Shown here: positions 4,290-48,326 of the stretch, piece by piece
How the letters are laid out: every line of letters starts with the position of its first letter
Position numbering within the stretch: the stretch's first letter is position 1
DNA from: Zygnema cylindricum
Taxonomy: Eukaryota > Streptophyta > Zygnematophyceae > Zygnematales > Zygnemataceae
DNA length: 64,000 nt
Direction of reading: 5' to 3'
Assembly (NCBI GenBank): GCA_037447655.1
Contig: JBBHKE010003541.1
Location: forward strand, 71,339-135,338
The notes under the pieces: model-generated
Told to the model about the DNA's origin: nothing
Databases searched by the model: none
What the model saw: the letters and a program-made list of their open reading frames with translations, nothing else
Translations under genes and position numbers: made by a program

Positions 4290-4935
4290 TTTTTACTCGG
4301 CTTAGGTATTAAGCTCAATTCTCGGGTTTGGGTTTTATAAGCCCCAATATCGAAATACACCGGTTTGGGTATTAAACCCAATTTTTGGGTTTGGGTTTTA
4401 TAAGCCCCAATATCGAAATACACCGGTTTGGGTATTAAGCCCAATTTTCGGGTTTGGGTTTTATAAGCCCCAATATCGAAATACACCGGTTTGGGTATTA
4501 AGCCCAATTTTCGGGTTTGGGTTTTATAAGCCCCAATATCGAAATACACCGGTTTGGTTATTAAGCCCGATTCTCCGGTTTGGGTTTTATAAGCCCTAAT
4601 ATCAAAATACACACCGGTTTGGGTATTAAGCCCAATTTTTGGGTTTGGGTTTTATAAGCCCCAATATCGAAATACACGGGTTTGGGTATTAAGCCCAGTT
4701 TTCGGGTTTGGGTTTGATAAGCCCCAATATCGAAATACACCGGTTTGGGTATTAAGCCCAATTCTCGGGTTTGGGTTTTATAAGCCCCAATATCGAAATA
4801 CACGGGTTTGGCTATTAAGCCCAATTTTCGGGTTTGGGTTTGATAAGCCTCAATATTGAAATACACCGGTTTGGGTATTAAGCTTATTTCATGGGTTTGG
4901 GTTATATAAGCCCCTATATCGAAATTCAAGGGTTT
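4290..4935. repeat. 63-bp minisatellite, about ten copies
   Basis: A 63-bp unit (cores 'GGTTTGGGTATTAAGCCCAA' and 'TATAAGCCCCAATATCGAAA') is repeated about ten times head to tail. Because 63 is a multiple of three, the minus strand reads as a 21-residue repeat, but a 2-bp insertion near 4610 splits it into two overlapping frames with no conserved start. The array sits inside a looser repeat ('CACGGATTCC..CACTTAGCCAAAA', about 59 bp period) found at 4252-4290 and 4940-5110. Confidence 0.8.
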
Positions 4936-13429: not shown

Positions 13430-13500
13430 GGTGATATGGCCGAGTGGTAAGGCCGAGGATTGAAAATTCTCGCTCCCCAGTTCGATTTTGGGTGTCGCCA
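13430..13500 (+). tRNA. tRNA with GAA (Phe) anticodon on a plastid tRNA-Cys-like body
   Basis: The 71-nt cloverleaf folds fully. The 7-bp acceptor stem is GGTGATA/TGTCGCC with wobbles. The D arm is GCC-GAGTGGTAA-GGC. The anticodon arm is GAGGA-TTGAAAA-TTCTC, putting GAA at positions 34-36. The variable loop is 4 nt, the T arm is CCCAG-TTCGATT-TTGGG, and the discriminator is A at 13500; CCA is not encoded. The D arm and the T-arm/acceptor half closely resemble plastid/bacterial tRNA-Cys, remembered rather than searched, whose anticodon is GCA and discriminator U. GAA plus A73 are Phe-type identity features. It could be a functional tRNA-Phe or a nuclear copy of an organellar tRNA that has drifted. 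Confidence 0.7.
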
Positions 13501-20715: not shown

Positions 20716-23700
20716 TCATTGGCACTTGCTTGACTTTGGAATGCAAAGTACTGCTCGTCTGCCAATCGCACGCAAATTCCGAAGTGCGATAGCTGTGCAC
20801 GCAAACTTATTCAGTTTTTTAAACGTTTCCAATTTTGTAAAACATTTACTCAGGCTCGTGCAAGTGTCGGTCGGCTTCAAATTATATACGCGTTCACGTG
20901 GACATCCTTTCCAGCGCGTTCCCATATCATCTGCAGCAAGACAAACCTGCAAAAAAAATTGAGTTAAGCACAGGATTGAAAAATAAATACGGTTCAAAAA
21001 ATGGCAAGTGAATAATGTGCCATAGCTGCATGAGTTAATATGGTTAGGCAGTGAGAGGAGGCAAGATGTTTCTTTTTTTCATTGGAATGTCACTTGAACC
21101 TGCATGTAACATACTTTTTAACAGGACGTGGCTAATTGCAAGAACACTTGGTACTCTCCCACAAAAACCACAATAGACCTGACGTACAACAAATTTCCAC
21201 AATGGTGCACTCTGCGTCAAGAAAACACACCTGTTGTCCAATGTTCCCGGTTCCGCTAGAAACAAAAAGAAGACGGCCGCAGTAAACTCCAGGATTTAAG
21301 GTATAGAAGAGGCGAATATCGCCATCCAATTGGCTACTGATAATGGAGAGACACGATTCGTCCTGTTTCACTTCGTACGGCCGCGTGCAAGGTCCCAGGG
21401 AGGGGAGTGGCCCCCTTTCTATGCACACCTGAAGTCGTTACACCGCCGGACATATTTAGTGTGACTGGACTGAAACACCTCAGAAATGTAAACTTTGTGG
21501 CCATATTTGCCCGCAGAAAATGTGTAAAGAGGGCCTTTGTAGAACATTGCGAATTGTAGTGTGCATAATAATCACAGAGGTCAATTCTAATTTGTGCGAA
21601 AGTCAACAAACCATACCGTGTATCGCTATTAGTGTTAAAGTTTTTTTCGCCACTTAAAACATCTTTTCTCCGTACACACTTGTCGGATTGTGGATCTGAC
21701 GGTTGCGATTGAAAGTAAAATTCTCAACTTCCGATTGAGGGTCTCAAATTGAAAATTGGACAAGTGTGTACGGAGAAAAGATGTTTTAAGCGGAAAAAAA
21801 AATATTAACACAAATAGCGATACGCTGTGTAGCGCGGATTAAATTTATGTGGCCTTTGTGAGACCTCTCATTTTAAAAATGAGATTTGAAAACATTCACG
21901 AAATTGGATAAGTTCTCAAGAGCGGAAACAAATTTACAAGGAGTACTACCAAACATGTCGCAAGAAAAAACGTAGGAGATCACCTTTGGTTTTTATGGCA
22001 TATGTTATTTGAAGAGACAAAACATACAGAATTTTGATATTATAAACGAATTTGAAAGGATTCTTAAAAAGAGGTTTTTTTTTTTTGGTTGACAAAAGTC
22101 TTGTGCTACAGATTGGAATGCTATTTTTTGTAATAGAACGACGCACTGGTTTCGTAATCAAACTTATGATTACCGTTTCATATATTGTTAGAATGACATT
22201 TTTTGTTACGGAACGACGCACCTGCTGAAACGGCCGAAGTTGAAAGCAGTCCAAGTCAACATTCGAAGAATTTGGTCCCGAAAGCGAATCGATCTCAAAC
22301 ATACTGGCGATTGTGGCACACGTGTCGCCCTGAAATAAACCAAGACCATCATAGGAATCAATTCCTGTAGTAGAAAGCTTAGCCCAAAGCACATTATCAC
22401 AAAGCTGAAAATTAAAAAACGTAATGATCTACAATTCCTAGTCAACATCATAGTGCACTAAAAGATTGAAAAAACGCTTGTTTTTCCATTCACGTAATTT
22501 CCATAGGGAGGCAAAATTATGTTGAAACCTCATTGACGGCATAGAGGAGAGAACAGTTGTTGGAGGTTGTGACATTGACAGCCGTTTTAGGAAGTAGTGG
22601 AACGGAGCAGTCAATTCCCTGCCACATAATTGAATAAATTGACATTACATTAGGAGGTAATCTGATAATGATGATCGAAGAAAAGGAAACTCTGGTTTCT
22701 ATTCCCCAACATGAAGCCAAAGGGATCAACACCAAATATAGCGTAGTAGTAGTAGGATAATGCAATCGAGAAGTGAATGTACGGCGGTAACGATCTCAAT
22801 CATGACATTGTACAATACTCATTGGCTGACCATCACCTGATTCTGTGCCAAAAACACATCCTTGTTGATGCCGTAAATGAGATAAATGTCATAACAGGTC
22901 ACGTTCACTCCACTTGGCACCTCAAAGTACTTCAGGCCACTCCCAATGGTACCATCTGGCAATCGTGCACTCCATTCATCAATACCATTGTCAGTCATGT
23001 TCGCAAATGTATCATGAAATTAAACAAAATAGTTAAGCAACTTTATGGATCTTTGCAAAGGTAGTTTTATGTCCACATCTAATGTGTTGGAAGCTTCAGA
23101 TTACGTCGTGCTTAGAATTTTATTATCATATAGAATTTCGTAATCTAGATATTTCCCTTTTAGCCATCCCATGTTTTTCGGTCTTACTCTAACTGCTAAA
23201 ATAAACTGTCCAGAGTACGTGATCTGATTTGATTTATTTTACCTTTTGATTGAATATCCAAGTGACTCCACAAAAGGTTTTCGAGTCCCGAAAAGCCACT
23301 CTCGTGACATTCCCTTTTGATATTTACCTTCTTTGTAATCTCAAATAAATTTATCTAATAAAATACGAAAACAAGATCTCTTCGTCCTCACTGTCCTTTC
23401 ACTTTTTTTGCCTTCTCCATTTCGTACTCATGTCTTCTAACTCAATAGATTATAGGCCTAGCAACGTTAATTCAAAAACTATTGCAAAAACTCGTGGCAC
23501 TGGTTTTTATGGATGGAAGAACCAAATTCAACAAAATTTACGTTGCAAAAAAAATTGTTCAATCAACAATGGTAGTGAAGCCAAGCCTTTCAACGCTATT
23601 GCTAGACTTTATTTGGCTCATTCCCAATGATGGCTCATTCTCTCGTAATCCTTCCTCTTGAGGATTCGTAAATCGACATCATTTATGCCGCCACCTCAGC

Positions 23701-26700: not shown

Positions 26701-27277
26701 ACCTTTGTGATTTCGTCATCATGACTTCTTACTCAGAATTGGGTACATCTCCTAGACTTTTACCTGCTACGCAAGTGAGTGTGCCGCTTGGAGTGTCCAA
26801 CACATAGCCGGGCGGACAAATGCACACATAAGTTCCGGGTGGAAAAGAAGAGTCCAAGCAGGTGCCCACTCCACATGGATTTTGCGGACTGAAGGTACAT
26901 GGGGAAGCTGCCACGTGTTCAAGGCCATAAAGAGTATCAAATTTAGAAAAAAGTTAGCTTAAACTCAATACAACATATAACAACATTATGTAGTCCAAAG
27001 CCACCAACGCTAACAGAGGTGCTAGAGTTTCTACCTGGAGCACAGGTTTGGGAGCCGTCCGTATTATTGACAGCCACAAATGTATCCGTACATTGGCAAA
27101 GATTGGTGCTTCCCATTGGAGTGCACACACCATTACCGCATGGGTTGGAGCGTCCTGGGCCATACTCTGTCTTTAAAACTTTTTTGGCAAAGTTGAAGGT
27201 GTTGCAAGGATCGTTGGCTGTAAAGATATACAGTTTCCCAGCATTCCCCACCGTTCCATTCCATGAAATAAGTCGAT
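20716..27277 (-). CDS. Gene B: secreted-type EGF-LysM protein (multi-exon)
   Basis: LysM domains bind N-acetylglucosamine-containing glycans. EGF modules are extracellular. Exons on the minus strand with GT/AG borders are: 27035-27277 (an LysM-like 'LYIFTANDPCNTFNFAKKVL' and an EGF with NPCGNGVC), 26764-26907 (second EGF, NPCGVGTC...CICPPGY), about 22837-23007 (LysM, 'YFEVPSGVNVTCYDIYLI'), 22529-22618 plus 22222-22329 (one LysM split at YAVNE/GDTCATIASMF), 21231-21428 (LysM, 'YEVKQDESCLSIISSQL'), and 20716-20946 (LysM, 'YNLKPTDTCTSLSKCF', then stop). The last four are in compatible phase 0. The start is not resolved: no signal peptide is identifiable before 27277, and the gene may be 5'-truncated, with only about 370 bp separating it from the stop of gene A. 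A Copia element occupies the intron between the EGF and LysM exons and a MITE lies in a later intron. No kinase or protease exon is seen. Confidence 0.75.
21616..21829. mobile_element. Palindromic MITE with TA flanks (214 bp)
   Basis: Long terminal inverted repeats of roughly 75 bp face each other: left 'TATCGCTATTAGTGTTAA', right the reverse complement of 'TATCGCTATTTGTGTTAA'. Both arms carry 'AAAACATCTTTTCTCCGTAC' and the element is flanked by TA on both sides (21614-21615, 21830-21831). It lies in an intron of gene B. It has no coding capacity and belongs to the same family as 16131-16330 and 63698-63720. The TA flanks and termini suggest a Tc1/mariner-type MITE (inference). Confidence 0.85.
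22130..22222. repeat. Duplication around a gene B splice donor
   Basis: The block around the donor of exon 22222-22329 ('TTTTTTGTTACGGAACGACGCAC', 22199-22221) is copied about 75 bp downstream in the transcript (near 22125-22147, 'TTTTTTGTAATAGAACGACGCAC'). This produces a second potential GTGCGTCGTT donor inside the intron. Confidence 0.5.
23085..26735 (+). mobile_element. Degenerate Copia element with two LTRs, in gene B intron
   Basis: Two related LTRs (about 23085-23444, starting TGTTGGAAGC, and 26320-26735, starting TGTATTTTGG) share 'GAGATATTTCCCTT', 'AGTACGTGATCTGATT', 'CCAAGTGACTCC' and 'TTCGTCCTCACT'-type blocks in order. Between them, gag-like sequence follows LTR 1 ('GTGFYGWKNQIQQNL', 'ATSAHDAWTLYA'). 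RT/RNase H pieces lie at 25620-26290 ('QHLKSV.MSK.FLKIDID', 'SKLINHFAMTDLGELEYC', an EA.WLRSLL motif and a 'LAEVLTNAL' end). Stops and shifts abound, and the part between gag and RT is largely lost or replaced. LTR boundaries are approximate. I could not read a target duplication. Confidence 0.8.
24165..24660. repeat. About 500-bp dispersed repeat, copy 1
   Basis: Aligns by eye along its length with 56301-56815. Shared blocks in order are 'ACGAGAAAATC.(T/G)CAG', 'ACCAGAAAA', 'ACTTTAAATG', 'AATTTGTCGT', 'CATCTTGAAACTT'-type, 'GTACACGGAG..CC..AAAAAAACCCAC', 'TTTTTTTCCGTGC', 'GGGGAGGGGT', 'CCATTTCG(T/C)AAAAGCGAAG' and a TCTCTCTC/CCCTCTC run. This copy lies within the Copia element in gene B. Confidence 0.8.
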
Positions 27278-27643: not shown

Positions 27644-30600
27644 TTAGTATTGCTTGATTGTAGGTGTTAGATGCGATGCTACCAAGGCTAAAATAACAGC
27701 TAGAAAGGCCAAAATGTATGGTGTTGAATAATGTACAAGACCAGAGTGCAACGGTAAAGGCTTACAAGAGGATTGTATTATCGGCACAAGTGCCGGAAGG
27801 CTATTTATACCACAGATTCCAAGTCCTCCAGTAATCTTGATTCGCATGTAGCCATTTTCTCCCCAATTGGCCCCCCACGAGTTACGAAGCACCCAGCAAG
27901 GCGGTGACGATGTGAGGTCGTAACCGACAACGACCACACTATGGTCCACACCGCTCGAGAAGCACTCGTCATCATCAAATATCCCCTTCACAACATCAAG
28001 CAGCTTATTTTTTTACCATTCGTTGCATTGCCTAGTGGCAAGAAACCTGGTAACCTAGTGTTGCCTAGTGGTTTATTTCTCAATATTGTAGCAAATTGTT
28101 CTCAAGCTTTTTTTCAATTTAATAAAATACAAATTTAGAGTCACACGAAATTTTCAACAAAGAAGCAATCAAATATAAACCCTTAGGCATATTTAAAAGA
28201 CCGCAAAAACAAAAAAACAAATAACTACAAATAACTACAAATAACTATGTTTGGTTTCAAACATTGGCTGCAAACGCCACGGATGCTTCCAAAGATGTTG
28301 GTTTTGCTCTTCAAGGAAAAATCTAAAATTACTGGAACATCTTCACCTCTTATCAACAATATGTTCTCTTGTTGCAAATGGGTGCTTAGAAACTCAAAGA
28401 CATTGCTTTTTAGATTCTTTGTACTACATCAATAATTAGAGATTAAAGAACATACATTCTTGTAATTTTTGAAACTATAGCTGCTTCCTTCAATATTGAC
28501 AATAGCGGGTTGCTGTTGGAGCGCTAGAAGGAGACCAATCCAACCGTGGGACTGAACTTCCTCAAAAGAGATGACACGTGTGCTGCTGGTGGGCTGCAAC
28601 AAATCAACGTGGAAGAATTCATCCTAAGTACAAGATGTTCATAATTTGTTGAGTAGGTCATCTGAATGTCCTTATAAGCTAATTACATGCAACTCGATTG
28701 CTTGCACAGGAATCCATAAAAACTGAGTTGAATCTTTCACTTTTTTGTCCCAAATATAACAAAGAAAATAAAAAACTTGCGATTTTAATCAGCCTGTTTT
28801 GAAGCAAACATTACTCTCCCCATATTTTTGGTTTGCTTTCATCCATCACGAATGTGTGGGAAAAATGAGAAAGATAATTCCTTAACTTACGCATGGCAAG
28901 AAGTTATTTTCAGAAATAATACCTCAAACACAAACAAATCCTTTTTAATTCAGACATGGCCAAATTGCAAGAAATTTCAGTATTTTGGTGGATTTTGGGG
29001 ATACACATCCAAAGAAGGTTATTACATACAAGTTTATGCTCTAAATACAGACGTATAATTTCTCAAAATTCTTTTTTATTTTCAAGTAAAATGCAACAGG
29101 GACTGGCGGAACTTAAATACATATAGTTGTAGCACGTGGCAATATGAGAGAGATCATTTTCTCCATATGAAAGTTGACGAACAACTGAGGCAGATTAAGC
29201 TCATGTTTGTGCTTTTACGTAGAAAAATTGAGTGGTGTGAGAATTTTTTCATGATTTACAATTTTTTAGGGGACAATTTGTTGAATAGGGTACTGTTTAG
29301 TGATATTACTTTTTAACCTTTTTTTATTTTTCTATTTTATTAACTTTTTTTTTTTTTACCACTACTTTTTTCCAAAAATCAGGGAATGAAATTGGCGTTT
29401 ATGTCTAGCATAAGTGGTATTCTAATGTTTTTTGAATGAGTTAAGCCAATCTATAAAAACATGTTTTTTAAATTTGCAAAAATAGCTGGAGAACAAACAA
29501 GTGCCCTTCAAATGTCTAACTCAAACTGCCATCACACCTTCAAATCACGACAATTGTCTGAACACTCAAATAGTACCTCACAAATCATATTTTTATTTAT
29601 TTTTCGGTGTTTCAAATTTAGTGACGTTACTAATCTGTAAATCAACAGATAGATGTTAAAAAGAGCTTATCAAGATAAATGTATCCCTAAAATGTATCAA
29701 AAGGATATCATACCTTCGGATCAATGCAACTGTTCGGACCAAAATAAGCTTCCTTGAAAATGAGGTCATTGAGAGCAGCATAATTAAGGGCGTCTCCTGG
29801 TGAGCCCCCATCGCCACAAGTTTTATTTTGTCCGGAACAAACAAGAAACTGTTCTTCTGGGATACTCGGAACTGGTATTTGGCCAGCATTGGCAATGAAA
29901 AAAGCGCTCTCAATGGCTGAAGTTGTAGAAAACACCCAGCAAGTATCTGTATGAATTAAAGAGGAAGCAAAGGCCAGGATGAAGGGGCGATGATTAGGAA
30001 CCGTAGGTCGTTTATACAATCAGTTAATCTGTGTACAAAACCCTCATATAACCTGCGGTGTTTTCAAGTCCTTGATCTAATAGATTATAGAGCGAAGAAC
30101 GCTAGGTTACACATTAAATATATATGTATAGTATATATATATGTATGTATATATATATATGTATATATTATATATATTACATATATACATACATATTAAT
30201 TACAGACTGTGAAAGGGAAGCAGAGTTTGGGGTTATAGGTTCAGGCTAATTATTTTCTTGTTGGATAAACTGAGGTTTCAACATTTTATCTCCAGGAGTT
30301 GTTTAGGAACTAACCGTAAGCCTTGACCTGGCAGCAAACTTACAGTGAAATACACCTAGGGACTATATGTGCCAAATAAAATCTTACTTCCATGTACCCA
30401 TTCACTATCATAAGGTCAATCAGATATTATAAAAATCAGAACAATCAACTTTTCTTAAAATTTGCATTATCATTTAGCCGTGTAAATATAATCTTCAGAT
30501 GACTAAAATTCTTCAGATTCTTGCTGTTTAATTTCTGTGAGGAAACACTTTTGCTTAGCTAACTGGACCTAAACTGTGCAATGATAAACAATCCGTATTA

Positions 30601-33600
30601 AGAAATTTAAAATTTTTAACATGTCACTTGCAAAAGTACAAATAATTATTTGGCAAGCATCTCGGTGATATTGTTATTACAACATATTTTTCTGACAATT
30701 GTATATATTTTAAAAGAAAAACCACAAGATCCAAAAGAACTCATACAAAAAAGGCAAAAAAACACGTTTCACGATTGCATATTGGTCTGTATACCCGCTG
30801 TATATGTACTTAACAAAATTATACAACTTTAGGTCTGAAAACCGCTGCCCAATAAACAGGTTATCTTAAATGCGAATAAGACTAGCATTTCCAATCCATA
30901 TTGACATACTGCACGTTTCCTGGTCTCTGATTGGTTGCAAAGCCTTTGCATTGACCCATTTCCAGCTGGTAGCAACCATCCAAGAAGGAGTCGTCTCTTC
31001 GTTTAAATGCAAATATCCTGCACTCAAATAACGGAAGTACTTATTCTTCTTTGATGGCGCAGACGATTGAGCGTCAATATATCCAAGGCCTCGGTTTCCT
31101 ACATCCAAAACACACAGAACATGCAGGTTAATGAGTAGAAACGTGGTTGCAATATATTTTTTATTATTTTTGGAGCGTAAACCATGAATGAAAATGTTAA
31201 TTATTTTACAATAAAATTGGATGCATAGATAAATAACATTTATAGGAATGCTTATTTTTGGAAAACTCAATTAAGACAATCAATGAGCGTAAAGCCCCAA
31301 AATAAAGTCCATATCTTCTTTCTGCCATAGGCTTCAATGTCATGCCTCACATGCACATATTTAAGTAATCGGGGTAAGGGCAGCCTACAGAATTTTCTGT
31401 CCAAATTGCTCAAATTCATAAATCATCAATACAGCTGTATTTGGAAATGTAAGGGAGACGAAAGTGGTATTCAATATACAGATAAACAAAAGAGAAAACG
31501 GAACGTAGATGAAAGGAATATTCATGGGGGAGAAAGTGAGGGGTGGAAGGTAAATGGGAGGGAATGGGATGTATAATATATAAAATCTACATTGCTAAAC
31601 GGAAGACGGAACGATCAAAGTAGAGAAACGGGGAACCATTTAACAAAAAAATATTTAGAATAGAAAAAAAACCGAAAGAAAGGTAGGGGATAGTGATAAG
31701 GACACATCTCACCAAAACTACAGGTGACTAAATTCTCATTGTTATTATATCCTTCATCGCATACACAAGTAGAGTTATTGTCACAAATTCCATGGCCTCC
31801 ACACGCTCCCATTGGTTGAGTAGCATTGCAAAAGCCAAGACATTCGACGGGGTCTTTTTGCTTTTCCTTTTCGCAACGAAACTGGGAGTTTTCCAAATCA
31901 AAGCAATTTGACCCCAAAGTGATTTCATTACATGATTGCATTCCATTGATGGTGATTGATGGCGTTCCGGACAAAAAGTTGTTTGTGAGGTTCACGCCGG
32001 GCTTCGAAAGTGTGGTAAAGTGGAGAATGACTACGCCTGTGAAAAAGTTGTTGTTTAATTTCCTGAAAGGAAAAAAAATATATGTATATTTTTAGGAAAA
32101 GAGATAAATAAATCAATGTTAGTTCAAAACAATGACATGATGAATAACCTGCAAACAAATGATTATCAGCATATCATGATTTTTATGTGACATGTAACAG
32201 CTTCAGGCATACTATCTTGAGGTCGTAAATGCGTTTCAAAAAAGGAGATGGGGAAATGTGCTGTTTAATAGGTTTATATTGGGTATGAATGCAATGACAT
32301 TTCAATGACATTCCCTGGAGTGTTTCAAAGCTGTTGAGAGGCAAACAATTTTGAAAGAGTGCGTATATCTGCCAACGACGTCGGTATATTTCCTCTGAAT
32401 TGATTACTGTAGAGGTACCTGTCACACCCATGCAATATTCCAAAAGTGCAAAAAAAAAAACATTCAGAATACGTTAGTCACGATGTTGCCACTCAATCGG
32501 AGCAGTCATACCCTCGTCCAACAAGCATAGGAGGGTGTGCTTTTTGGGCGAAGGCCCACCAAAGCCTCACACCTCGACTAACTTGTATATTATAAACTGC
32601 TTATCCAAAACCAACGAGCAATCCGTTGTGCTCTTATTGTCGTGCTTGAGGGAAAGGAGAAAAGGTATTTTAGTTTAAAATGATGGGGTCTTGATGTCCC
32701 TATAGGAAGGAAACCTTCTAGTGGTGGATAAATTTTCTGCCCGAAACTGTATGCAGATAAAGAGTATTTCTCACAAACTCATAACAAGGAGGGAAAAACA
32801 TAGACCATGAATCGTAGGAGCTAAAAAACTTGAGAGGCTATTGCTTAATTGATGTTCCTGTAGTTACTTTGAGTTTGAACGTGTTTCATTTAAATGAATC
32901 ATGATCGCATGGCCCTCTGTAAATTATGTAAATTGTTATGCTCATTTACGCTATGTGACGCGTGAATAGATGTGTACGAATTTCTACTTATTATGGTCCC
33001 AATGTGTAAGCAGGTACAAAGATACCGCTTACTTAGACCTTGTTTGACACTAGCCTTCATAGGTGTTAAAGAGAGAGCATACAATATCCGAAGACTTCGC
33101 AAATTTGCAATACTTTCGGGGATGCTTACAAGTCTGTTCCTATCCAGCAGCCTGCAACATTTACACGTTCCAAAATTATAGTTTATATTAATGAAATAAA
33201 GTTGTCATAAATCATTTAGTTAGATAAACTAAACACTTGCTATGGGATTTATCATCTTCAAGGGACCAGAGTTAAATATGTTTTTCTACCTTGGCTAGAG
33301 ACCTCCGTCACCTGTAGTATAAAGAATCAACCAATGGCTTACGTCATAGAAATATGAAAGTGGAGAAAACTACCAACATATTAAAACTTCGGATGATAAA
33401 GAATAGAAACTTAAAAAAACACCAAAAAATAGTCTTCAAAATTAGTAAATGGTTATAAGGGACGTAGGAAAAAAAAATGGAAAAGGCAAAATGCAAAGAT
33501 ATAAGGGAAGGCTGCCCTTTACAATTGACGGCTGAGGGGGAGTGCTGATTTTAAAACATTCGAGCAATGGAGCTGCAAAGAGGTTTGTGACTATGCAACA

Positions 33601-36600
33601 CTCACAACTCTTGGAGGGTAAAAAGGCTTCCAATGCTTGCAGGAATGGCACCAGTCAATTGATTGGACGACAATATCCTACGAAGTCCAAACTTAGCACA
33701 TTAGAAGCAACAAAGATTTACAAAATTGTGGTAACGTAAGGTCTAATTAGTCTAAAATAAACAGGTAGGCAAGTATGTTTCCATTTTTCTCAGATAAATA
33801 TATAAAAAACGTATGTCAATACGATGATTCATATTGACAGAAGGCGTTAGAATCAGTTTGAGAAAGGTATTAAAGACAAGGGCCAATATGTGTTTCAAGA
33901 TTCAGTCCAGATATGCCGGAGTTAAAAGATTTAATATCTTGGTTCAGGAGTAGACTAGTCTCAATAGGATGTTAGAGGAAAGTGAGAAGTTACAAGCGTT
34001 TGTCAATAGTCTGCCCGATAAATTCACCCATTTTTTCAAGTAATTCTTCAAGCGAGAAAGAAGACTACTTTTGATTTTGCGGTTAACTACTTAAAGATGT
34101 TGAGAAGTCAATCCTGAGATGACTCTAGTAGAGGGTCGAACAGACAGGGAATCTGAATGTAAGGACGCCTGAGACCCTGGAGCTAAATTTACTTTGAAGG
34201 AGAGGTGTTGAGATCATGGTGAGAGAGGAAAGCATCAATCTCTTACATGAAGAGGTAAGGTTGATACTAGTGGTCTCTCTGTGACTTGCTGGACAATTCT
34301 GGTGGCGAGCCCCATAAATTTACAATTGCTTGAAGGGTTCTATTGGTGGTGACAAAAAAAAGCTTAAGTAATGGATAATTAATATGGGGAGTGACTCATC
34401 CTGTGTGTATGGACAATTTTTTTTTCGAGAATATGAGGACCTTGATAGTTCCCGATAGAATCACAATGGCGAGTGGCCACGTCATTTCGGTTGACACTGC
34501 GAGGACCGTCAAGTCGGACAAGTAGGGACGAGAACAGGAACTATAAATTTACGGGGAGAAGCTTCTCATAATGCCTATACATTCCCAATGGTTTCATGAA
34601 CGGCGTGAACGTTCCTCAGATTCACAAGGTTGACAACAGGGTTCCGGCAATGGAGGAATTCAGTATCGTGATTGAAAATTCTTAGGACAATTTATCGGTG
34701 AAGGATTCGTAAGTGGCAGCAATATAAAATCTTTAACATTGAAAAAGAATCTCGTGTTTCATAATCGAATGAAAAACGTCAGAATTTCACTGGCATTTTG
34801 TGACAGACCTTGTGAGTGGTAAGGAGTTAGAGTTCAGTTTTGTCTCTACTACTAAGGAAGTGGCAGATATATTGACCAAGACTGCCATGCCTAACGTCTA
34901 TGTTAGGGGAAGGCCTAAGACTGGATTGTTATGTCTAAGTGAAAGGATTTCCATAACGAGTGAGGGAATGATAGGATGCATTATGTGAATTGACTATCGA
35001 CCGTGTTCGCGCACTATTTATTATTCGGATTTGTACATCTGTGTTGTTTGGTGTTGTATGTTTGTTTCGTGCTCGTTACATGGTACCTTATTTTTGTTGA
35101 ACCGTACGTTTAGTTTTGGTGAAAAAAATATCTGATATGCAGCACACTGTTCGTCATCTATATGTTTTAGTCATCTATATGTTTTAGTGGAAGTCTGTCC
35201 TGTATGATAGTGGAGAACGTCCAGGTAGATTTTGTTGTGTATTTTGTGGTATAATAAGTTATTATGTTAGTCTGTTTGAGTAGTAAGAAAGAAATTTGTA
35301 AGAGCGAGTGAAAAGAAAAGCTACGGTTTAACATATGTGTATTTTTTTGAGCCCAAAACGAGGAAAAAAAGGGGCGAGAGAAAATGAAAACTGGTGGAAA
35401 CTAAAAACAAACACAAAAGTGCTTTCTGTGGGAATATTCTGAACTTTTGTACCATGTATTCTTATGTTATCTCAGCAAAATTTTAATTTTACCCCTAGCA
35501 AGAGGCAAAACCGGATCACTTGACTTTTTTAAAAAAATTCAAAATTGCGAATTTCCGGAAAGATGACAATATTTGAATGCTCCCAAGTACAGACACAAAA
35601 AAAAGAAACAAAAAGTAATTGCGCTGAAAATAATTTACCAAACCAAAATTTTACTTGTGTTAAAAAGAGTGGAAAGGTTTGAAACCAAGGTGAACTCAAA
35701 AAATATCCAGCATCCTATCTTGATGTCATGTTCTCCAGTTTCTTGGACACATCTAAACAGTGAAAATTTGCAGGATTGCAGGTCAAAACAACAAAAAAAA
35801 TGAGTCTCACAACTTCTCGAGATTTTTTAGGTTTCCAATGGAAGACGGTATGTTCCCCGTGAAAAAATTGTTCGCTAGGTTCCTGAAAAAAAAAAAATGC
35901 CATGGCATAAAAATGAAATGCCATGATTTAGCCTTCAGTTTCAAATTTGCAGGAATGCAAATACTTCATGACACGCCCTTCCAATAAATTCCATTTAATC
36001 TCACTTATGTCTGAGCACAAAAATCTCTTAATGAGATGAAAGGCACTTAAACGGGTTCATCAGTGAACTGCCCAAGTAGTTAAATGATTTGCAACTTTCT
36101 TGAGGCTAAAGAAGAAAGCTGTATAATTGCCTTCTTAGCGTTGTAAAGTTCCACAGTTCATTGCCTGCAACTTTCTCACTACACGAGCGACGTTTACTTT
36201 GTCCCTTGGAGAAAGTTGCGTGACTGGTGAATATTTTTTATAAATCATCATTTTGTGAATATGCTCATTCGTCTTATCAGCTTTACACATTATTTTCTAG
36301 AACTGAACAGTTTTTATTATGATTACTGTTAAAGATGATTCCTGCAACTTTTATACTTTGTTTGTTTGTAGATACATGGGAGAACTTTTTATTTCCAAAA
36401 AACCTCCAGCTAAGATCGTCAGATGAGCAGCACCCAAAAAGAATACAAACTTCAAACAAACAAACAACCTAAACCTTTACTGTATACTTGTTTACGTACA
36501 AACGTGTCTATGTACTAGACAACCATCACTTTGATAAGCATTTTGCCAACTGAGCAAAAGGATCAAATGCAATGTAACCTTTCACACATCTACACTTGAG

Positions 36601-37194
36601 CCTCTATATCGAACACAAGATTGTCATTCAGATCCATTGGGACATGCAGCGAAAGATCAAGCTCTCACAATTCTTGAAGGCCGCTGAGGAGTCCTATAGA
36701 AGGGGGAATAGAGCCGATAAGGTCCAGTCCATTCAGCAAACTGCGTCAACGATAAAATGTCTTTTTTGTTATGATTTTACACGAATATTATAAAAAAAAG
36801 TCTCATGGTTACCATTTTAACCCTAGATAACATAATATCAACAATAAGTTCAAACCAATCCTCAAGTTAAAAATGATAGTCTTGTTTACATAACGTCATA
36901 TCTTCAGAATCATGATATGTTGAAGCAAAAAGACTGAAACAATTTTGATAGTTGTCCCTTGTGTTGTTCATTTTGTTTACAACTATAAATAATTAGTAAT
37001 TCAGCACTCTAAATATAAAGAATAGGATTAAGGATTTAAAATATCAGTTTGACGTGCTCACATTTTTTTCACTTGCAGCCTACTGTTGCACACTATGCCA
37101 TCCCACCCACAAAAGCTTGATCCATTCTTCCAGTTTGCAAAATTATTGTTTGGATCGCTTGTGATGGCATCTTTCAAATTTAGGAGGACGACAC
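27644..37194 (-). CDS. Gene A: LRR-EGF-papain (C1A) protease with C-terminal membrane anchor
   Basis: Predicted extracellular cysteine protease joined to recognition domains. Minus-strand exons: 37073-37194 (LRR N-cap 'LKDAITSDPNNNFANW', FCGWDGIVC); LRR exons 36669-36740, 35811-35882, 33606-33677 and 32347-32418 (72 bp each) and 33083-33151 (69 bp), all phase 2, with motifs like 'NNFFTGNIPSSIGNLKNLEKL'; 31713-32062 (last LRR, Cys cap, EGF 'CGGHGICDNNSTCVCDEGY'); then protease exons 30910-31098, 29714-29946, 28456-28593 and 27644-27985. All four C1A active-site residues are present: Gln in RDQETC, Cys in NTCWVFS, His in GVDHSVVVVGYD, Asn in LRNSWGANWGENGY; the usual CG.GG is CGDGG. Phases agree at every junction from 36740 down to 27644, including EGF to protease (phase 1). 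The C-terminus has a hydrophobic segment (YILAFLAVILALVASHL) plus a 7-residue tail, so membrane-anchored or GPI-processed. No I29 propeptide is seen. The N-cap-to-first-LRR junction does not match in phase, so an exon is missing or undetected there. Confidence 0.82.
30118..30200. repeat. TA-rich microsatellite
   Basis: Alternating TATATG/TATATA runs in an intron of gene A, between the first two protease exons. Simple-sequence repeat only. Confidence 0.85.
33850..35300 (+). mobile_element. Degenerate Copia fragment in an intron of gene A
   Basis: Gag-like UBN2 sequence near 33970-34040 ('SEKLQAFVNSLPDKF') is followed, after a decayed stretch, by the RNase H end. 'NLVFHNRMKNVRI' and, after a frameshift, 'KEVADILTKTAMPNVYVRG' lie at about 34745-34930, like the end of the element at 15206. 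A purine-rich GAGTGAGGGAA at about 34958-34968 and TGATAGGATG may mark the 3' LTR start. Opposite strand to gene A. Boundaries uncertain. Confidence 0.7.
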
Positions 37195-39889: not shown

Positions 39890-42800
39890 ATTTGCAAGTG
39901 TATTTGCTCGCTATATCAGTGTAGCCTTGGTTGCAAGCACATGTAGTTGTAATCCCATTTGTAATATTGGAGCAAATACCGTTCCCCCCACAAGGTCCTC
40001 CCGCCTGGGTAGTATTGCAAAACGCGTCACAACTACTTTTACTACGTTGGGCACTGGATCCGCATCCAAATGGGATGTTCGAGTCAAGCAGGCAATTTCC
40101 GTACAATTCTTCACATGCTGGGTGTCCGTTGCCTTGTACAATGGGCCCAGTGAAATAGTTGTTGTAAATGTAGCTAATCATAAAACCCGTCCATAGTGAT
40201 AGAAAACCAGTTAGTGACTTTTGACTATAATCGAACTATCGCGCTCTTTTACTGGATGTTGCAAATGAGAAAAAGAAGCTGTTTTATTGTTTCATTCTAT
40301 ACTCCTTTATATTTAATGTGATTCGGGAGGTATTTGGTGTCAAAATGGGGGAGGGATTTTATAGTCCTTACATGTTTACTTTGAGGATAAAAAAAGTGTT
40401 TGTAAACACTTGAAAAATAAAGGCATTTGGAAAGGTCAATTTTTTACTCTTTTATCTTAACCGTCACTAAGGGTCATGATTTATTTATTTAGTTTTTTTC
40501 CTTTGAATGTTTATATTTTATTCGGAAAGCCTTTTGTTTTTCTTGACTCTAAATAAGACATCATAATTGAAAGAAAGAAAAAGTCAATCATTATGGAATA
40601 AAAGAAAATACAAAATATTTTTAATTTTACTCTTAAAAAATTGGATTCGTAAAAGCAATTGAACATGTAGTAAAGTTGGAAATGTGAGAGCGACAATATG
40701 GAGGTGACTCCTCGCCTTCCCCTTACCTTTCCACATGCACCTTATCGTCCCCTTAGTTTTCTTATCCGAGGTTACTTTCTTGATTTACCGATTGTATATA
40801 TTGTTGCTTTATATTTTCATATTCTTTTTCTTTTTTCTTGCATTCTGGGCTTCTTTTGTTATGTCTTCGTAAAATTTCATTATCCATTGGAATCTTATCG
40901 TAAAGTTAGTTATGATAAAGTTAGTTGGGACTGTATGGTGCATATTTACGATTTTTCAAATTTTTGCTCCCCTTTCTCCTATTGCTATTCATTAAATCCT
41001 TCAATTTCTCAGTGTTAATTTTCTCATAGTTCCAAAAAGAAAAAAATCCCAATTTCTCCAATATCTTACTAAAACTTTTGTGCTTAACGTTAAACTCTAC
41101 CAGTTTTCTTGAAGTAAATTTTTACTCCCACATCCTTTTTTCCCAGACTTTCAAAGTTTTACCCTCTTTATTACTCATCCTGTTCCCGCTCCTACTTTCC
41201 CGTCCATGCCTTTCTTTTCTCCTCTCCTGTCCCAACCTTCTCTTCCTCCCTCTATTCACCGCTCCCATCCGCTCCCCTAACCCTCTCCTCCGCTCCCTTA
41301 GCCCTCCACTCCTCTCATCTCCCCACCTCCCTCTTTTCCCTCCTCTCCCCTCTTCTCCCCTCCGCTCCACTTGCCCTCCCCTCTTCTCCCCTCTCCACCT
41401 TTAAATGGCTCCGCTCTCCAACACATGACAGTCCCTCCCTCTTCCTCTTTAATGAAGATAATACCAATATTAATTGAATATACAAATGTTTTGGCTTTTC
41501 TTGTTTTATATTTTGAGGGAGGGATATATTTAGGGGGTAGAGGGAGATGTTAGAAATAAGGCGGCAGAGGAGTCCAGAAGCACCAAAAGGAGGCTGAAAA
41601 TGGCTTCGTGCCGGGCGGTTGAGGAGGGGGGGAGGAGGGAGTGATAAGATGTAAGACTTGTTTTGGTTTTTTCTTTTTGTTTTTATTTTCAATAAATATT
41701 AGGCTTTCGTCAAGTTCTTCTTTTGTAAGTTATTGTTGTTAATTATATTGATAGAGGAGAAATGCCCCGTCTTCCAACTTTTTCTGTTAGATTTTTATTG
41801 TTTTTTGCAAGGTTTTTTGATTTTTTTTTTTTATTGGTGAGTTGGGTAAAGTAATTCTTGTAATATTTTCTATTTCTTTTTTACTTTTTGGCAAACTTGG
41901 TGGATATGTTTCCAGGTTTTGTAGTGTTTCCAGTATAGTATATTTTTTTCAGGAATTATTGCGTATTTTGGGGGTGGGAAGGTAAAAGGAGGGGTACGGG
42001 CCGCACTCTTTGGTCATGTTTAACATCGCACTAAACATGGTTTGTGGGAGGGGTGAGTGTAAGCTCCCCTATCACACTAAATATGATTGTGGGGGAAGGG
42101 GGGAATATGGAGAAAATAGGGGGCTGTGGGGTATGGTGCTAGGGCATTTCCCCCCCCCCCCTACGCTCCCCTCTCCTTTTTCGCCTTCCTCTCCCCCTCT
42201 CTCTTCCCCTCTCTCTTCTCTTCTCCCTCTCCTCTTCTTCCTCTCTCTTTTTTTCCTTTCTCTTCTTCCTCTCTTCCTCCCCTTTCCTCTTCTTCCTCTC
42301 TCTTCTCTTCTCTTCTTTTCTTCCTACATAGCCTTAACTTGTGTTGTTTGCTGATTTAAAAAACTTTGGAAAAGATGAGTAGTGTGTTTAAAACAATTTT
42401 GGTAAATCTGCTAAAAAACATAGAAAATAATACCTACAAAAGATAAAAATATTGCAACAACGTTTATTGCCGTTAAGCACCATATTTGAGAAATTTCTTA
42501 AAAAAAATTGAAGTAGCAATTGAATTTGTGTAGAATTTAATCTTACAAATTTTGGAGGTTTGTAAGTTGACCGATGGACGATGGAATGCTTCCACTCAAC
42601 TGGTTGTTAGTTAGATATCTGTAACGCCATCCACTCCATCAAATAGTCTCCCGTTTCCTTCTGTTTATTTGGACCGAAGTATAATAAATTTAAGAAAAAA
42701 TGGGTATGAACTTTTTCTATGTTCATTTATAAAATTCTCTCATTTTGGGTTTTTGTGTTGTTAAGATTTTTTTCGTTTGTTTGCAACATTTTGAGCTTTC

Positions 42801-43642
42801 ATCGCTTAGTGATAGTGAAAAATATTTTAAAATATCTCATGTAACTCCCTAACTTCTCTTTTTTCGTCCTCTCCTCTCCGCATCCCCCGCTCTACCACCC
42901 CCTACCACACCGTTTCTCTGTACATCCCCACCATTTCTCTCTCTCTCCCTCCCTCACTCTCTCCTCTCCCAATCTATTCCCTATCCCTCCCTTTCTTCTC
43001 CATCCTTCTCTCACACCACCTCTCCCGTGACCAACCCCTGTCCCCCTCCTCATCCTCTCTCCTTTCTACTTTCTCTCTCCCTCTCTCTCCCTCTACCTCT
43101 CCTTCTCCCTCTCTTTCCCTTGAGGGAGAGGTGAGGGTAAGCTCCGTTTTGACGTTAAATATAGATTGAGGGCGGGTTGAGTGTAATCTCTATTATCACA
43201 CTAAATACGGTTCGAGGGAAGGGTGCGTATAAACCTCGTGTGATACTAAATATGATTGTGGGGAGGGGAAGAAATGGGCGAAAGGGGAAAGGAAGTTAAG
43301 ATCCCTAGCCACATTAGCTATGGTGTTGGGAGAGTAGGTCCGTCCCTCTCTCCCTTCTACCCCTCTACCTTCCCCTCCCCTTTCCCCTCTCCCTCTCGAG
43401 TTACGTTCTGTTGCTTTCTAATTCATAAATATTTGGTATAGCTTATGATAAAAACATGAAAATACGAACTTCAAAAAAGAAGATTCGAATACGTTCATTG
43501 TCAGTACGCATCATTTTCGTGCAAATTCTACCCCATTTTAGTGTTAGCTTTCTGTCGAATTTGGTCTTACACGTGTTGGAGGCTTCTGAGTTGACCGATG
43601 GACGATGGAATGCTTCCACTCAACTGGTTGTAATGTAGATAT
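39890..43642 (-). CDS. Gene C: LRR-EGF gene, partial, paralogue of gene A
   Basis: Three minus-strand exons are clear. 43571-43642 and 42547-42618 are 72-bp phase-2 LRR exons ('NQLSGSIPSSIGQL' in both) with CAG acceptors and GTAAG donors. 39890-40173 begins with the last LRR ('YIYNNYFTGPI'), continues through a Cys-containing cap (CEELYGNC...FGC) and an EGF module ('CGGNGICSNITNGITTTC', CNQGYTD) and ends at GTAAGT. The order and spacing of Cys match the LRR-EGF exon of gene A, so the two are paralogues. Not found: an N-cap, further LRRs and any protease exons. It may be a pseudogene, may splice onward to undetected exons, or may be a non-protease relative. Its introns contain long pyrimidine tracts. 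Confidence 0.65.
41140..43400. repeat. Series of polypyrimidine tracts within gene C introns
   Basis: C/T-rich tracts on the plus strand at about 41150-41450, 42150-42330, 42850-43120 and 43340-43400. The 42-kb and 43-kb LRR exons and their flanks are themselves near-duplicates ('GAGTTGACCGATGGACGATGGAATGC' in 43.6 kb), so exon and flanking tracts were duplicated together. Confidence 0.7.
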
Positions 43643-45214: not shown

Positions 45215-45224
45215 NNNNNNNNNN
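45215..45224. other. Assembly gap (10 N)
   Basis: Ten undetermined bases at the right edge of the polypyrimidine tract. The true length is probably unknown, and the sequence on its right is of ordinary composition. Confidence 0.99.
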
Positions 45225-46490
45225 CGTGATTATATTTGGGGTTCAATTATGAAAGAAATGGGATTGTCTCTAAATGCAAATCGACAACTTCGGTACTCTT
45301 CGTAAAGAGTGGAAAGTAGTAGTGGTGGAGGTGTAAAACGCGTTAAGGTCAGAGGTCGACTTCACCTTACTGAATATATGACCACGCTGACATATGTTTA
45401 TGAACTACTGCCGCTGGAAGTGCCAGACCTTGACCAAATTACATCCTTGCAAAACGGGATAGAACTTAGGAATCCCATACAATACCGGGCACTCACACAA
45501 CATAGTAGGAGTTACTTCCTCGCTGGCAACATTACTTGAATTTGGACGACCTGCGACAAAGAAATTTCTTGACTAGTTTCTTGACTTCAGCTGGAGACTG
45601 GAATTGCGCAAAATGTGGAGGTGGTGATGATGAAAGGTGAGAAATGCTTCTCATGGCTTCAACAGCTAAACGTAAATCTCTGTTAGGGTAAAGAAAGTAT
45701 TAACTTGGGGTTTATATTAGTGCTATTAATTCTAATTCAGTTCCGAAACACGCGTGATTTTGAACCATTGACAGAAACTATCATTAAGAAAAAAAATGGT
45801 GATAATAATTATAGTTATTTAGTGCTGCTTCAACACTTCTAAAAATCAAACTGCTGAAAAGGAAAAAAACATACATGAAGAAAACATATAGGACAAAATA
45901 AGACAGAACAAGACAAAAAAATGAGATGGGACAAGACAAGACAAGTAACACAGGACAAGATCCTTAAAGACAAAATCATTAACGACAAGATCATCGACAT
46001 TCATTTCCCACTTCTCACTCTTCTTTCTCCACTATGTTTCTTCCACTCTGTTTTTGTTTTCTTCCCCTTTTTTTATTCTTTGTTAATTTTTTTACCGACA
46101 AGATACTTACATCCAGAATATTATTGACATTATTTGTACTGTCCGGAGGCCGTGATTCGTCGTCCAATTGCCGACAGTAATATACTTTTAATAAAATCTC
46201 ACAATCTACTCGTCATTAAATCCAAAAACAAAAATGTAAGTCACAACATGAAAATAACATAAAGTTTTCATTTCAATCAGTTATTTTGTTACTTAACAAA
46301 AAACCAGAACCTTTTTTGGCTCATATCAAGCTTTCTGCGTTTTTTCTGAGAGGTTTTGTAACCATTCTTTGAGTTTCTAACGGTTTTTCTTGAGTATATT
46401 GAGTTCTTTTGGACCAAAGGACCAAGTTTTTTTGGCTTCTTTAAGGTTTTTCCAAAACTTACCGGAAGTTATCGGTTAACCACCCATCGT
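45225..46490. other. No gene confidently recognised
   Basis: A plus-strand frame at 45309-45539 (76 codons, basic start then 'LPLEVPDLDQITSLQNGI') has a plausible composition but no domain I recognise and no supporting splice signals. Near 45890-45990 there is a short 'GACAA(G/A)' repeat. The rest is AT-rich. Confidence 0.35.
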
Positions 46491-46494
46491 CCCT

Positions 46495-48326
46495 CTTTCG
46501 CGACAAACTTAAAAACGGTATGAAAATACGGTCTGAAAAAACGATTTAAAAAACGATCTGAAAAAACGGTCAAAAACGGACAGAAAAAACGGAATGAAAA
46601 ACTGACAAAAAACGGAATGGAAAAAGAGACTAAAAAAACGGCCTGAAAAACGGTCTGGGAAAACGGACTGAAAAACGGCCTGGAAAAACGGTCTGAAAAA
46701 ACGGTCTGAAAAAACGGTCTGACAAAACGGTCTGAAATAGGATCTAAAAAACGATTTAAAAAACGATCTGGGAAATGGGTCTGAGAAGACGGTCTAAAAA
46801 CGGACAGAAAAAACGGACTGACAAAACGCACTGAAAAAAGGGTCTGGAAAAACGGTCTGGGGAAACGGACTGAACGCCTAGAAAAACGGTCTAAAAAAAG
46901 GGTATAAAACCGGTTTGGAAAACGGTCTAAGAAAACGATCTGAAAAAAGGGCCTGAAAAACAGTCTAAAAGCGGACTGGAAAAACGGTCTCAAAAAACGG
47001 TCTAAAAACGGTTTTAAAAAGGTATGAGAAAACGGTGTAGAACAATAAAAAGCGATCTGGAAAACAGACTGAAAACGGTCTAAAACGGTTTTTAATACGG
47101 ACAGAAAATCGGACTGAAAACCGACTGGAAAACGGTCAGGGAAACGGAATGAAATAAACAGATCCAGACAATGAACGAAAATGTTTAAAAACAACCTGCG
47201 GTCTCGAACAAACGGTCTGAGAACGAGCTGAAAACGGAACGAAATCCGAAAAGCTGGAAAAAGTATAACAACGGTCTTAAAAACGGATTTAGAAACGGTA
47301 TGGAAAAACGGACATGACAAACGTACTGGAGAAACAGACTGAAAAACCGGTATGAAAAAATGCTCCGAAAAAAACGATCAAAAAACGGATTGAAAAATGG
47401 TCAAAAAAAACGGTCTAAAAATGGTGTGAAAAAACAGCCTACAAAACAGTCTGAACAAGGGGACTGAAAAAACGGTGTGCTGGAAAACGGTCTGGAAAAA
47501 CCGACTGAAAAAACGGTCTAAAAAGGTCTAAAAAAACGGCATGTAAAAACGGCTAAACGGACTAAAAAAACGATCTGAATAAACGGCCTGAGAAAAGAGA
47601 CTGAAAAAAGACCTAGAAAAGAAACTTTGAAAATCGGAAACAGAATCGAAAAAAGAACTGAAAAAACAGCTGCAAAAACGGACTGAAAAAAAGGACTGAA
47701 AAAGTCTGGAAAAGCGGTCTGGAAAAACGGATTGGAAAAACAAACTCGACAAAACGGACTGAAAAAAAGGAACTGGGCAACGGCCTGGAAAGGTATGGAA
47801 AAACGGACTAAAAAAAAACAGACTGAAAAAACAATCTGTAAAACAGTCTGGAAAAACGGTCTGGAAAAACGGTCTGGAGAAACGGTCTGGAGAAACGGTC
47901 TGGAGAAACGGTCTGGAGAAACGGTCTGGAAAAACGGTCTGGAGAAACGGTCTGGAGAAACGGTCTGGAGAAACGGTCTGGAGAAACGGTCTGGAGAAAC
48001 GGTCTGGAAAAACGGTCTGGAGAAACGGTCTGGAAAAACGGTCTGGAGAAACGGTCTGGAAAAACGGTCTGGAGAAACGGTCTGGAGAAACGGTCTGGAG
48101 AAACGGTCTGGAGAAACAGTCTGGAGAAACGGTCTGGAGAAACGGTCTGGAAAAACGGTCTGGAGAAACGGTCTGGAAAAACGGTCTGGAGAAACGGTCT
48201 GGAGAAACGGTCTGGAAAAACGGTCTGGAAAAACGGTCTGGAGAAACGGTCTGGAAAAACGGTCTGGAAAAACGGTCTGGAGAAACGGTCTGGAGAAACG
48301 GTCTGGAGAAACGGTCTGGAGAAACA
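46495..48326. repeat. 13-bp minisatellite, diverged left half and homogeneous right half
   Basis: From about 47845 to 48326 the unit ACGGTCTGGAGAA (or GGAAAA) is repeated about 37 times with almost no change. To the left, down to about 46495, more variable relatives (ACGGTCTGAAAAA types) continue. Since 39 bp is three units, both strands read as 13-residue protein repeats in long frames. These are incidental. The decrease in homogeneity from right to left fits array growth on one side. Confidence 0.9.

Follow-up and report, generated by a model that had tools for sequence, protein, structure and literature searches.

The window analyzed here, a 64,000-nt stretch of Zygnema cylindricum DNA (GCA_037447655.1, contig JBBHKE010003541.1, positions 71,339 to 135,338, forward), carries on its minus strand a gene of 21 exons, which, when spliced in silico from the genomic DNA, form a single open frame of 1039 amino acids with GT-AG at every junction (Table 1). 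This is roughly double the length first reported. A sequence-only reading had proposed that a leucine-rich repeat (LRR) part, a Cys cap, an EGF module, and a complete C1A (papain-type) protease are fused; we confirmed that the 11 exons concerned (37194 to 27644) share one frame with GT-AG borders, and a Pfam search of their 579-residue product detected LRRNT_2 (E 4e-8), LRR_8 (E 2e-13), and Peptidase_C1 (E 1e-40, residues 322 to 529), the EGF between LRR and C1A falling below the threshold. In the 1039-residue model, Peptidase_C1, LRRNT_2, LRR, and one LysM were above the cut-off and EGF was slightly under it. The LysM match (26.2 bits versus a cut-off of 20.9) covers one stretch only, across E15/E16, and the remaining LysM-type units are recognized by similarity to relatives only, not by the Pfam cut-off. 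Judged from its sequence, the product is probably an extracellular mosaic cysteine protease, [LRR-EGF]-[LRRNT-LRR-EGF]-C1A-EGF-EGF-LysM x4, likely secreted and tethered to glycans, with swappable arms.

Table 1. Exons and related features of the mosaic protease gene, in window coordinates
Feature	Positions	Strand	Remarks
Module 1 LRR exon a	43571..43642	-	72 nt, phase-2 introns; putative part of the gene
Module 1 LRR exon b	42547..42618	-	
Module 1 Cys cap + EGF	39890..40173	-	Phase-1 donor GTAAGT; E1 is the next in-frame exon
E1, module 2 LRRNT_2 cap	37062..37194	-	Phase-1 acceptor before exon
E2, LRR	36669..36740	-	
E3, LRR	35811..35882	-	
E4, LRR	33606..33677	-	
E5, LRR	33083..33151	-	69 nt
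E6, LRR	32347..32418	-	Weak donor GTTTGC
E7, final LRR + Cys cap + EGF	31713..32062	-	
E8, short pre-protease linker with YFRYLS motif + C1A start including Gln	30910..31098	-	
E9, C1A with catalytic Cys	29714..29946	-	
E10, C1A	28456..28593	-	
E11, C1A with catalytic His + Asn	27766..27985	-	Donor GTAAGC at 27765
Intron start, first read as hydrophobic anchor	27644..27765	-	Non-coding in main product
E12, EGF-like domain 2	27035..27217	-	
E13, EGF-like domain 3	26764..26907	-	
E14, LysM-type 1, first part	22837..22955	-	
E15, LysM-type 1, second part / LysM-type 2 start	22529..22618	-	
E16, LysM-type 2	22222..22329	-	
E17, LysM-type 3	21231..21428	-	
E18, LysM-type 4 + stop TGA	20716..20946	-	

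The 3' end differs from the sequence-only reading, which had the protein membrane anchored by a hydrophobic C terminus. The 40 residues after IIQSS are an intron read-through, and beyond E11 seven further exons (EGF, EGF, LysM-type x4) continue in frame to the stop. Of 16 family members, 13 have GTAAG as the donor at the end of E11, 2 have a different GT donor, and 1 has GC. No membrane-strength helix was found in the 1039-residue product, in which no 19-residue Kyte-Doolittle window exceeds 1.48 (the best one sits within C1A). It is very improbable that the gene encodes an anchored LRR-EGF-C1A protein terminating at 27644: the tail is hydrophobic (2.07 over 19 residues) and open for 40 codons, an anchored form could arise through intron retention, and the tail of paralog L031 is likewise open (32 codons, though in a different frame), but the consensus donor sits where family identity ends, and the anchor frame is broken in all three close paralogs (L029 and L030 reach a stop at codon 15, and L031 is frameshifted), whereas E12 onwards is conserved and in frame, with 90 to 98% identity for E12 to E17 in the C20 paralogs where covered, and relatives run on into EGF-EGF-LysM. 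The read-through of an intron had thus mimicked a membrane anchor. A point against the model is E18, whose identity in the same paralogs is only 59 to 67%, compared with about 90% or more for neighboring exons.

The protease domain belongs to C1A (Peptidase_C1, 140 bits versus a cut-off of 20.7), and alignment to papain-type structures, relatives, and paralogs bore out the presence of all four catalytic residues, Gln, Cys, His, and Asn. An I29 inhibitory prodomain, usual but not universal in C1A, gave no PF08246 match in either the 579- or the 1039-residue model; only a short conserved linker precedes C1A. Among 30 relatives elsewhere, the catalytic Cys is retained in 16 and replaced by Ser in 9 (1 was misaligned and 4 were uncovered). 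These nine substitutions would suit a catalytically idle scaffold in which the protease fold serves to bind, but we regard this as quite unlikely for the Zygnema protein, since among the exons of this genome that cover these positions all 16 have the Cys, all 20 the His and Asn, and all 22 the Gln. A "1 TAG" seen repeatedly in many of the last C1A exon's matches to the genome was considered as a possible recoded stop and rejected: in the two loci read (L024 and L025), it is the acceptor TAG before the exon.

The intron phases are as previously described, that is, 1 at the EGF-to-protease junction and 1, 0, 0 within the protease. The phase match had been held to speak against two adjacent genes, but this argument is insufficient by itself, because phase 1 is found at every border between modules of this gene, the pattern expected of shufflable modules. 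Plants have LRR proteins and papains as separate proteins, and phase 1 is usual at module borders, so that two neighboring genes, LRR-EGF and C1A, might be suspected. This is scarcely conceivable given that E7 precedes E8 by 0.3 to 0.8 kb, with the order unchanged, in the window and 13 of the loci fetched (by 2.5 kb in a 14th), and that Mesotaenium and Closterium have one-protein models. One gene is therefore the reading that we retain, and the fusion is not due to chance, because the paralogs repeat the exon order and pairwise dN/dS over the compared exons is 0.24 to 0.36 (8 comparisons), which indicates purifying selection.

At the 5' side, a second LRR-cap-EGF module (43642 to 39890) lies 2.7 kb upstream of E1. 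In the four paralogs that are closest among those covered (C20 x3 and C249) it also precedes E1, by 1.7 to 3.3 kb. In L019, the 2.4 kb preceding E1 showed no such module, and L017 has a lectin in its position. The closest paralog (L035, C20:270-295 kb) has, ahead of its module 1 LRR exons, one exon for a signal peptide and one for LRRNT, spliced to each other in phase 1; this LRRNT was found using as a query an L022 exon spotted by eye, the E1 profile having matched no module 1 LRRNT in any locus. In the window copy, neither a start codon nor a signal peptide nor the LRRNT of module 1 was found, even with the LRRNT of the closest paralog as a query, and a 10-N assembly gap lies near 45217 to 45226. 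Module 1 might instead be a separate gene or remnant, in which case the protease gene would begin with a signal-peptide exon of its own somewhere from 39889 to 37195. In favor of this, a single LRR module is what relatives such as Mesotaenium P0003 possess, and in the closest paralog module 1 itself carries a signal peptide and LRRNT, like a separate gene. We nevertheless consider this unlikely: the four aligned intervals between module 1 and E1 share no exon that would encode a signal peptide and end in a phase-1 donor, the module recurs before E1 in C20 x3 and C249, and its donor and the E1 acceptor are both phase 1. We infer that module 1 is part of the same gene as the protease.

At least 104 exons of this protease type were counted in the genome, and a part of them may be haplotypes. 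The C1A-EGF part is constant among members, and the N-terminal part varies (LRR-EGF, double LRR-EGF, legume lectin, or lectin plus LRR). The regions around C1A exons were fetched for 20 loci; with E7 as the sole query, 14 of them yielded an LRR-cap-EGF exon, and 4 of the 20 contain legume-lectin exons. By section, dN/dS was 0.08 to 0.34 for C1A, 0.06 to 0.23 for EGF2-3, 0.31 to 0.49 for cap-EGF, and 0.19 to 0.58 for the module 2 LRR; module 1 reached 0.66 in one of the three comparisons that include a cap exon. Positive selection on the LRR surface was not seen, the surface evolving only mildly faster (omega, 0.48 versus 0.31). The window copy could be a decaying or 5'-truncated, unexpressed duplicate: one LRR exon present in at least six paralogs is absent between E3 and E4, the module 1 signal peptide and LRRNT of the closest paralog were not found in the window, there is an assembly gap, and some family members (L020 and L021) contain stops. 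Decay has a minor share of the probability in our view, as 1039 codons are open, all four catalytic residues are retained, and dN/dS against paralogs is 0.27 to 0.33 in the three best-covered pairs.

The sequence-only reading knew of no such combination. The gene is not unique: the combination occurs in a zygnematophyte family whose database entries are unnamed or hypothetical proteins; we found no published description of LRR-C1A-LysM, C1A-LysM fusions being already in print. In a tree, 14 family C1A rows (the window and 13 relatives, 3 without stated species) form one branch against 13 outside rows (100/99), which was present in 100% of 200 bootstrap trees. The collinear C1A-EGF-EGF-LysM core was found in E12 to E18, in frame after E11, and in relatives P0001, P0003, and P0005. 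A search with the cap-EGF part alone gave 128 candidates, none of them at E 0.001. The same domain order is encoded by Mesotaenium and Closterium. In Mesotaenium endlicherianum, Mesen1/9575 (P0003) and Mesen1/4019 (P0002) likewise have a signal peptide, LRRNT-like cap, LRR, Cys cap/EGF, and C1A, but with one LRR module and 36 to 38% identity; P0003, a single predicted protein, shares the C-terminal EGF, EGF, and LysM but has Ser in place of the catalytic Cys, and predicted protein P0002 ends after C1A. Closterium P0111 (Naga37s-1) and P0113 (CLOP_g13460, NIES-67) each combine LRR, C1A, weak EGF, and LysM in a single predicted protein, P0113 with Ser for Cys, and P0006 and P0007 differ in having a legume lectin inserted between EGF and C1A. 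By sequence comparison, the gene is thus a member of a zygnematophyte C1A-EGF-EGF-LysM mosaic family.

The earlier proposal that a protease takes the place of the kinase of plant receptors is unsupported in that form, since the LRR and the protease have no membrane helix between them and the protease is mid-protein, followed by EGF and LysM. Besides, no kinase domain was among the Pfam matches of the 1039-residue model up to E 1. The protein may instead be secreted, with its LysM repeats as a tether to wall glycans, of GlcNAc type or other, on the algal wall or a microbial surface, while the LRR arms would select a protein partner and the protease would cleave proteins held nearby; the switch would be recruitment through binding, not a membrane signal. 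At the cell surface, its most likely role would be defense, proposed by analogy, or recognition of wall/self, and many paralogs with module swapping would pay in such a role. Phase-1 exon shuffling is best known from animal extracellular proteins, and our data suggest exon shuffling at phase-1 borders in streptophyte algae as well. Tentatively, and with less than even confidence, we propose that the family, with its many paralogs, is a zygnematophyte extracellular recognition repertoire with proteolysis as output, in which LRR-EGF and legume-lectin arms are exchanged via phase-1 exons on a LysM-tethered papain core, some forms being Cys-to-Ser, and which would be a secreted counterpart of land-plant receptor kinases. 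Land plants put LRR, legume-lectin, and LysM parts on receptor kinases; if the proposal is true, a large secreted protease family represents a different use of these parts. The family is a testable candidate for immunity, wall remodeling, or mating in these algae.

Combinations of C1A peptidase and LysM lectin domains occur in non-vascular Archaeplastida, and C1A-lectin combinations were reportedly not kept in vascular plants (Van Holle and Van Damme 2019; PMC6362431). In those proteins LysM is joined to C1A as here, but the passages on them name no LRR part and no zygnematophyte expansion. The catalytic domain resembles solved papain-type C1A enzymes (ervatamin C 2pns, ficin, and actinidin; E 4e-31), whereas the Zygnema C1A is embedded in a mosaic protein with no I29 prodomain found. 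In plant LRR receptor-like kinases and proteins, too, LRRNT_2 is present and the 24-residue LRRs lie on phase-2 exons of 72 nt. The Zygnema gene shares LRRNT_2 and plant-type LRRs with them, as detected by Pfam, but it is without a membrane-strength helix or kinase and places its protease centrally and LysM at the C terminus.

In the spliced minus-strand model, 37194-27644 reads as claimed from the sequence by eye: first an LRRNT cap and five LRR exons, then one exon combining the last LRR with a Cys cap and an EGF (E1 to E7, here module 2), and finally a complete four-exon papain-type protease (C1A) domain (E8 to E11), with the claimed intron phases correct. A Pfam search of this product bore out LRRNT_2 (E 4e-8), LRR_8 (2e-13) and Peptidase_C1 (1e-40), while the EGF that had also been named reached only sub-threshold scores. 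The best match of the C1A part among solved structures was ervatamin C (E 4e-31), with which the active-site motifs align. The matching phases had been offered as proof of one gene. This argument is weakened, since phase 1 occurs at every module border (module 1-2, EGF-C1A, C1A-EGF, EGF-EGF, and EGF-LysM) and is a requirement for module exchange; LRR exons are phase 2, and introns within the LysM part are phase 0. The proof that this is one gene and not two is the conserved exon order.

The hydrophobic anchor proposed in the sequence-only reading turned out to be read-through of an intron, namely 40 residues beyond the E11 donor (GTAAGC at 27765, immediately 3' of the ...VPIIQSS codons). Its frame is broken in all three paralogs on contig C20 with that stretch in hand, by a stop at codon 15 (L029 and L030) or by a frameshift leading to an unrelated 32-residue reading (L031). 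Of 16 family members (the window is one of them; four C1A rows of greater distance are not counted), 13 have GTAAG as the donor, 2 have GT with other next bases, and 1 has GC. Besides, the next exon, E12 (EGF), was found downstream of E11 in 12 of 15 relatives, and the remaining three loci end less than 0.5 kb from E11. The in-frame continuation gives a stop-free 21-exon model of 1039 codons, and nowhere does the encoded protein reach the hydrophobicity of a membrane helix on the Kyte-Doolittle scale. C20 paralogs are 90-98% identical to the window over E12 to E17 and 59-67% over E18, the L031 comparison spanning E12 and E13 only. C-terminal EGF modules and LysM domains also follow C1A in predicted proteins of Mesotaenium (P0001 and P0003) and Closterium (P0005) and in a metagenome protein (P0004; 64% identity across 31% of the 371-residue query region); Mesotaenium P0002, as predicted, ends after C1A.

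A second LRR-EGF module (module 1) lies upstream of E1, its cap-EGF donor and the E1 acceptor both being phase 1. Each of the four closest paralogs for which the stretch upstream of E1 was fetched (three on C20 and one on C249) carries the cap-EGF exon of this module 1.7-3.3 kb upstream of E1 and on the same strand; in locus L019 it was not seen within 2.4 kb upstream of E1, and its place in L017 is taken by a legume lectin. No signal-peptide exon between module 1 and E1 is common to four aligned copies. The module 1 LRR exons of the closest paralog (C20:270-295 kb) have an LRRNT exon upstream of them (L035:2130-2026), and before this comes a signal-peptide exon whose donor is in phase 1 (L035:2338); the same pair of exons occurs at L022:4857-5188. 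Judging from these exons, the pair (L035 2338-2026 and L022 4857-5188) is likely the true start of family members. From this, we infer a gene order of signal peptide, two LRR-EGF modules joined to each other, and protease.

With the paralog's LRRNT as the query, no signal-peptide or LRRNT exons were found in the window, and a run of 10 N (assembly gap) stands in low-complexity DNA upstream of the gene, at 45217-45226. Hence 5' exons may have been lost or put in the wrong place at the gap, or the window copy may be truncated; that it is truncated or silent seems to us unlikely, though less so in view of the exons not found. In intron E3-E4 (35500-33700), no counterpart was found of an LRR exon present there in at least six paralogs. 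A plus-strand ORF in this intron (34773-34988; no Pfam match) resembles, by its motif, the terminal part of a Copia-type RNase H, and for this reason a transposon insertion may have removed the LRR exon. Elsewhere in the window, two adjoining long plus-strand ORFs (11436-12974; 222 and 289 amino acids, the second with an acidic tail) gave no Pfam match.

Exons and other features located in the window
Feature	Position	Strand	Remark
Module 1 LRR exons	at 43642 and 42618	minus	upstream of cap-EGF exon
Module 1 cap-EGF exon	40173-39890	minus	phase-1 donor
Two EGF modules	27217-27035, 26907-26764	minus	next in-frame exons; in-frame exon model
Four LysM-type units to stop	22955-20716	minus	in-frame exon model
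tRNA-Phe (gaa)	13430-13500	plus	ARAGORN; Rfam as tRNA
Large tandem arrays	46511-48325, 61594-62718, 4298-4925, 6771-7609, 8796-9405
13-bp AAACGGTCTGGAG array	47841-48325		95% matches; within 46511-48325 tandem region

Within the Zygnema genome, the active-site Gln is kept in 22 of 22 E8 rows aligned there (two more of the 24 stop short of it), the catalytic Cys in all 16 covered E9 rows of 17 (a stop follows it in one of the 16), and His and Asn in every one of the 20 E11 rows, among them four from more distant C1A genes; each count includes the window. Of 30 relatives elsewhere, 16 have Cys and 9 Ser at this position, with 1 misaligned and 4 uncovered. The Ser forms, in Mesotaenium and Closterium, retain His and Asn (P0003, P0005, P0010, P0018, P0019, P0024, P0107, P0108, and P0113). 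On these counts, the window copy should be catalytically active, and the family appears to make altered (Cys to Ser) forms as well.

Searching the same genome (352.8 Mb, 2689 contigs) with C1A as the query yielded at least 149 matches. At least 104 of these, with identities of 46-98%, span the last catalytic exon; this is a minimum number of exons, given that scoring covered 131 of 485 candidates, and haplotypes may account for some of them. Twenty loci around C1A exons were fetched from strong and weaker matches, and 14 contained the LRR-cap-EGF exon (query, window E7 alone; E 1e-3). The others, without an E7 match, had legume-lectin modules (L024 and L025), an LRRNT exon (L026), a signal peptide and LRRNT-like exon (L022), or only a broken protease exon (L020); the last of them, L028, is a more distant C1A gene. 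Lectin also lies upstream in two of the 14, on the same strand: before LRR-EGF-C1A exons in L017 (9275-8159) and before cap-EGF-C1A exons in L018 (8926-8450). These two appear to represent a lectin-plus-LRR version of the family. In-frame stops occur within protease exons of L020 and L021; some of the family copies may therefore be in decay.

When the window copy was compared with each of eight paralogs over all exons used, pairwise dN/dS came to 0.24-0.36, exon matches below 58% identity having been removed beforehand and one stop codon (C966) skipped. By section, values were 0.08-0.34 (C1A), 0.31-0.49 (cap-EGF), 0.19-0.58 (module 2 LRR), 0.06-0.23 (EGF2-3; three pairs), and 0.43-0.48 (LysM; two pairs). 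Module 1 gave 0.66, 0.27, and 0.25 in the three pairs with the cap exon matched, for which alone the value is meaningful; elsewhere, and partly there too, LRR queries matched other LRR exons. At surface positions of the LRRs, dN was 0.204 versus 0.076 elsewhere and omega 0.48 versus 0.31. Since dS was raised along with dN (0.423 versus 0.241), these positions seem relaxed rather than positively selected.

The sequence-only reading had suggested charophyte and bryophyte genomes as places to look for the same domain order. LRR and C1A do share a single predicted protein in Mesotaenium (P0002 and P0003) and Closterium (P0006, P0007, P0024, P0111, P0113, and P0114), and one frame of P0110, from a transcript assembly of unstated species, holds two legume-lectin stretches, C1A, a weak EGF, and LysM. 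Among the matches listed from 5.8 billion proteins, where names stand on only part of the rows and the search reaches only relatives sharing exact words, no row named as bryophyte or vascular plant was noticed with C1A joined to LRR or LysM. For a tree of C1A domains, sequences with a match of at most 150 positions were set aside, namely 17 of the 30 relatives and 2 of the 15 outside proteins picked by hand. The window and the 13 relatives kept then group on a single branch, apart from 13 others (100/99; 100% of 200 bootstrap trees).

From the domain content, we argue for a secreted protease, with a LysM part that would hold it on glycans and LRR and lectin arms that would direct it. Given the size of the family and its varied recognition parts, we favour defence or surface recognition as the likeliest role, with wall remodelling and mating as further candidates. 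In the parts consulted, neither the Zygnema genome paper (PMC11096116) nor PMC11289646 mentions C1A with LRR or LysM, and no description of such a combination as here was found in the portions of open-licence literature covered. As far as the consulted part of one survey goes, C1A joined to LysM occurs in Archaeplastida, and vascular plants have not kept C1A-lectin combinations (Van Holle and Van Damme 2019, PMC6362431).
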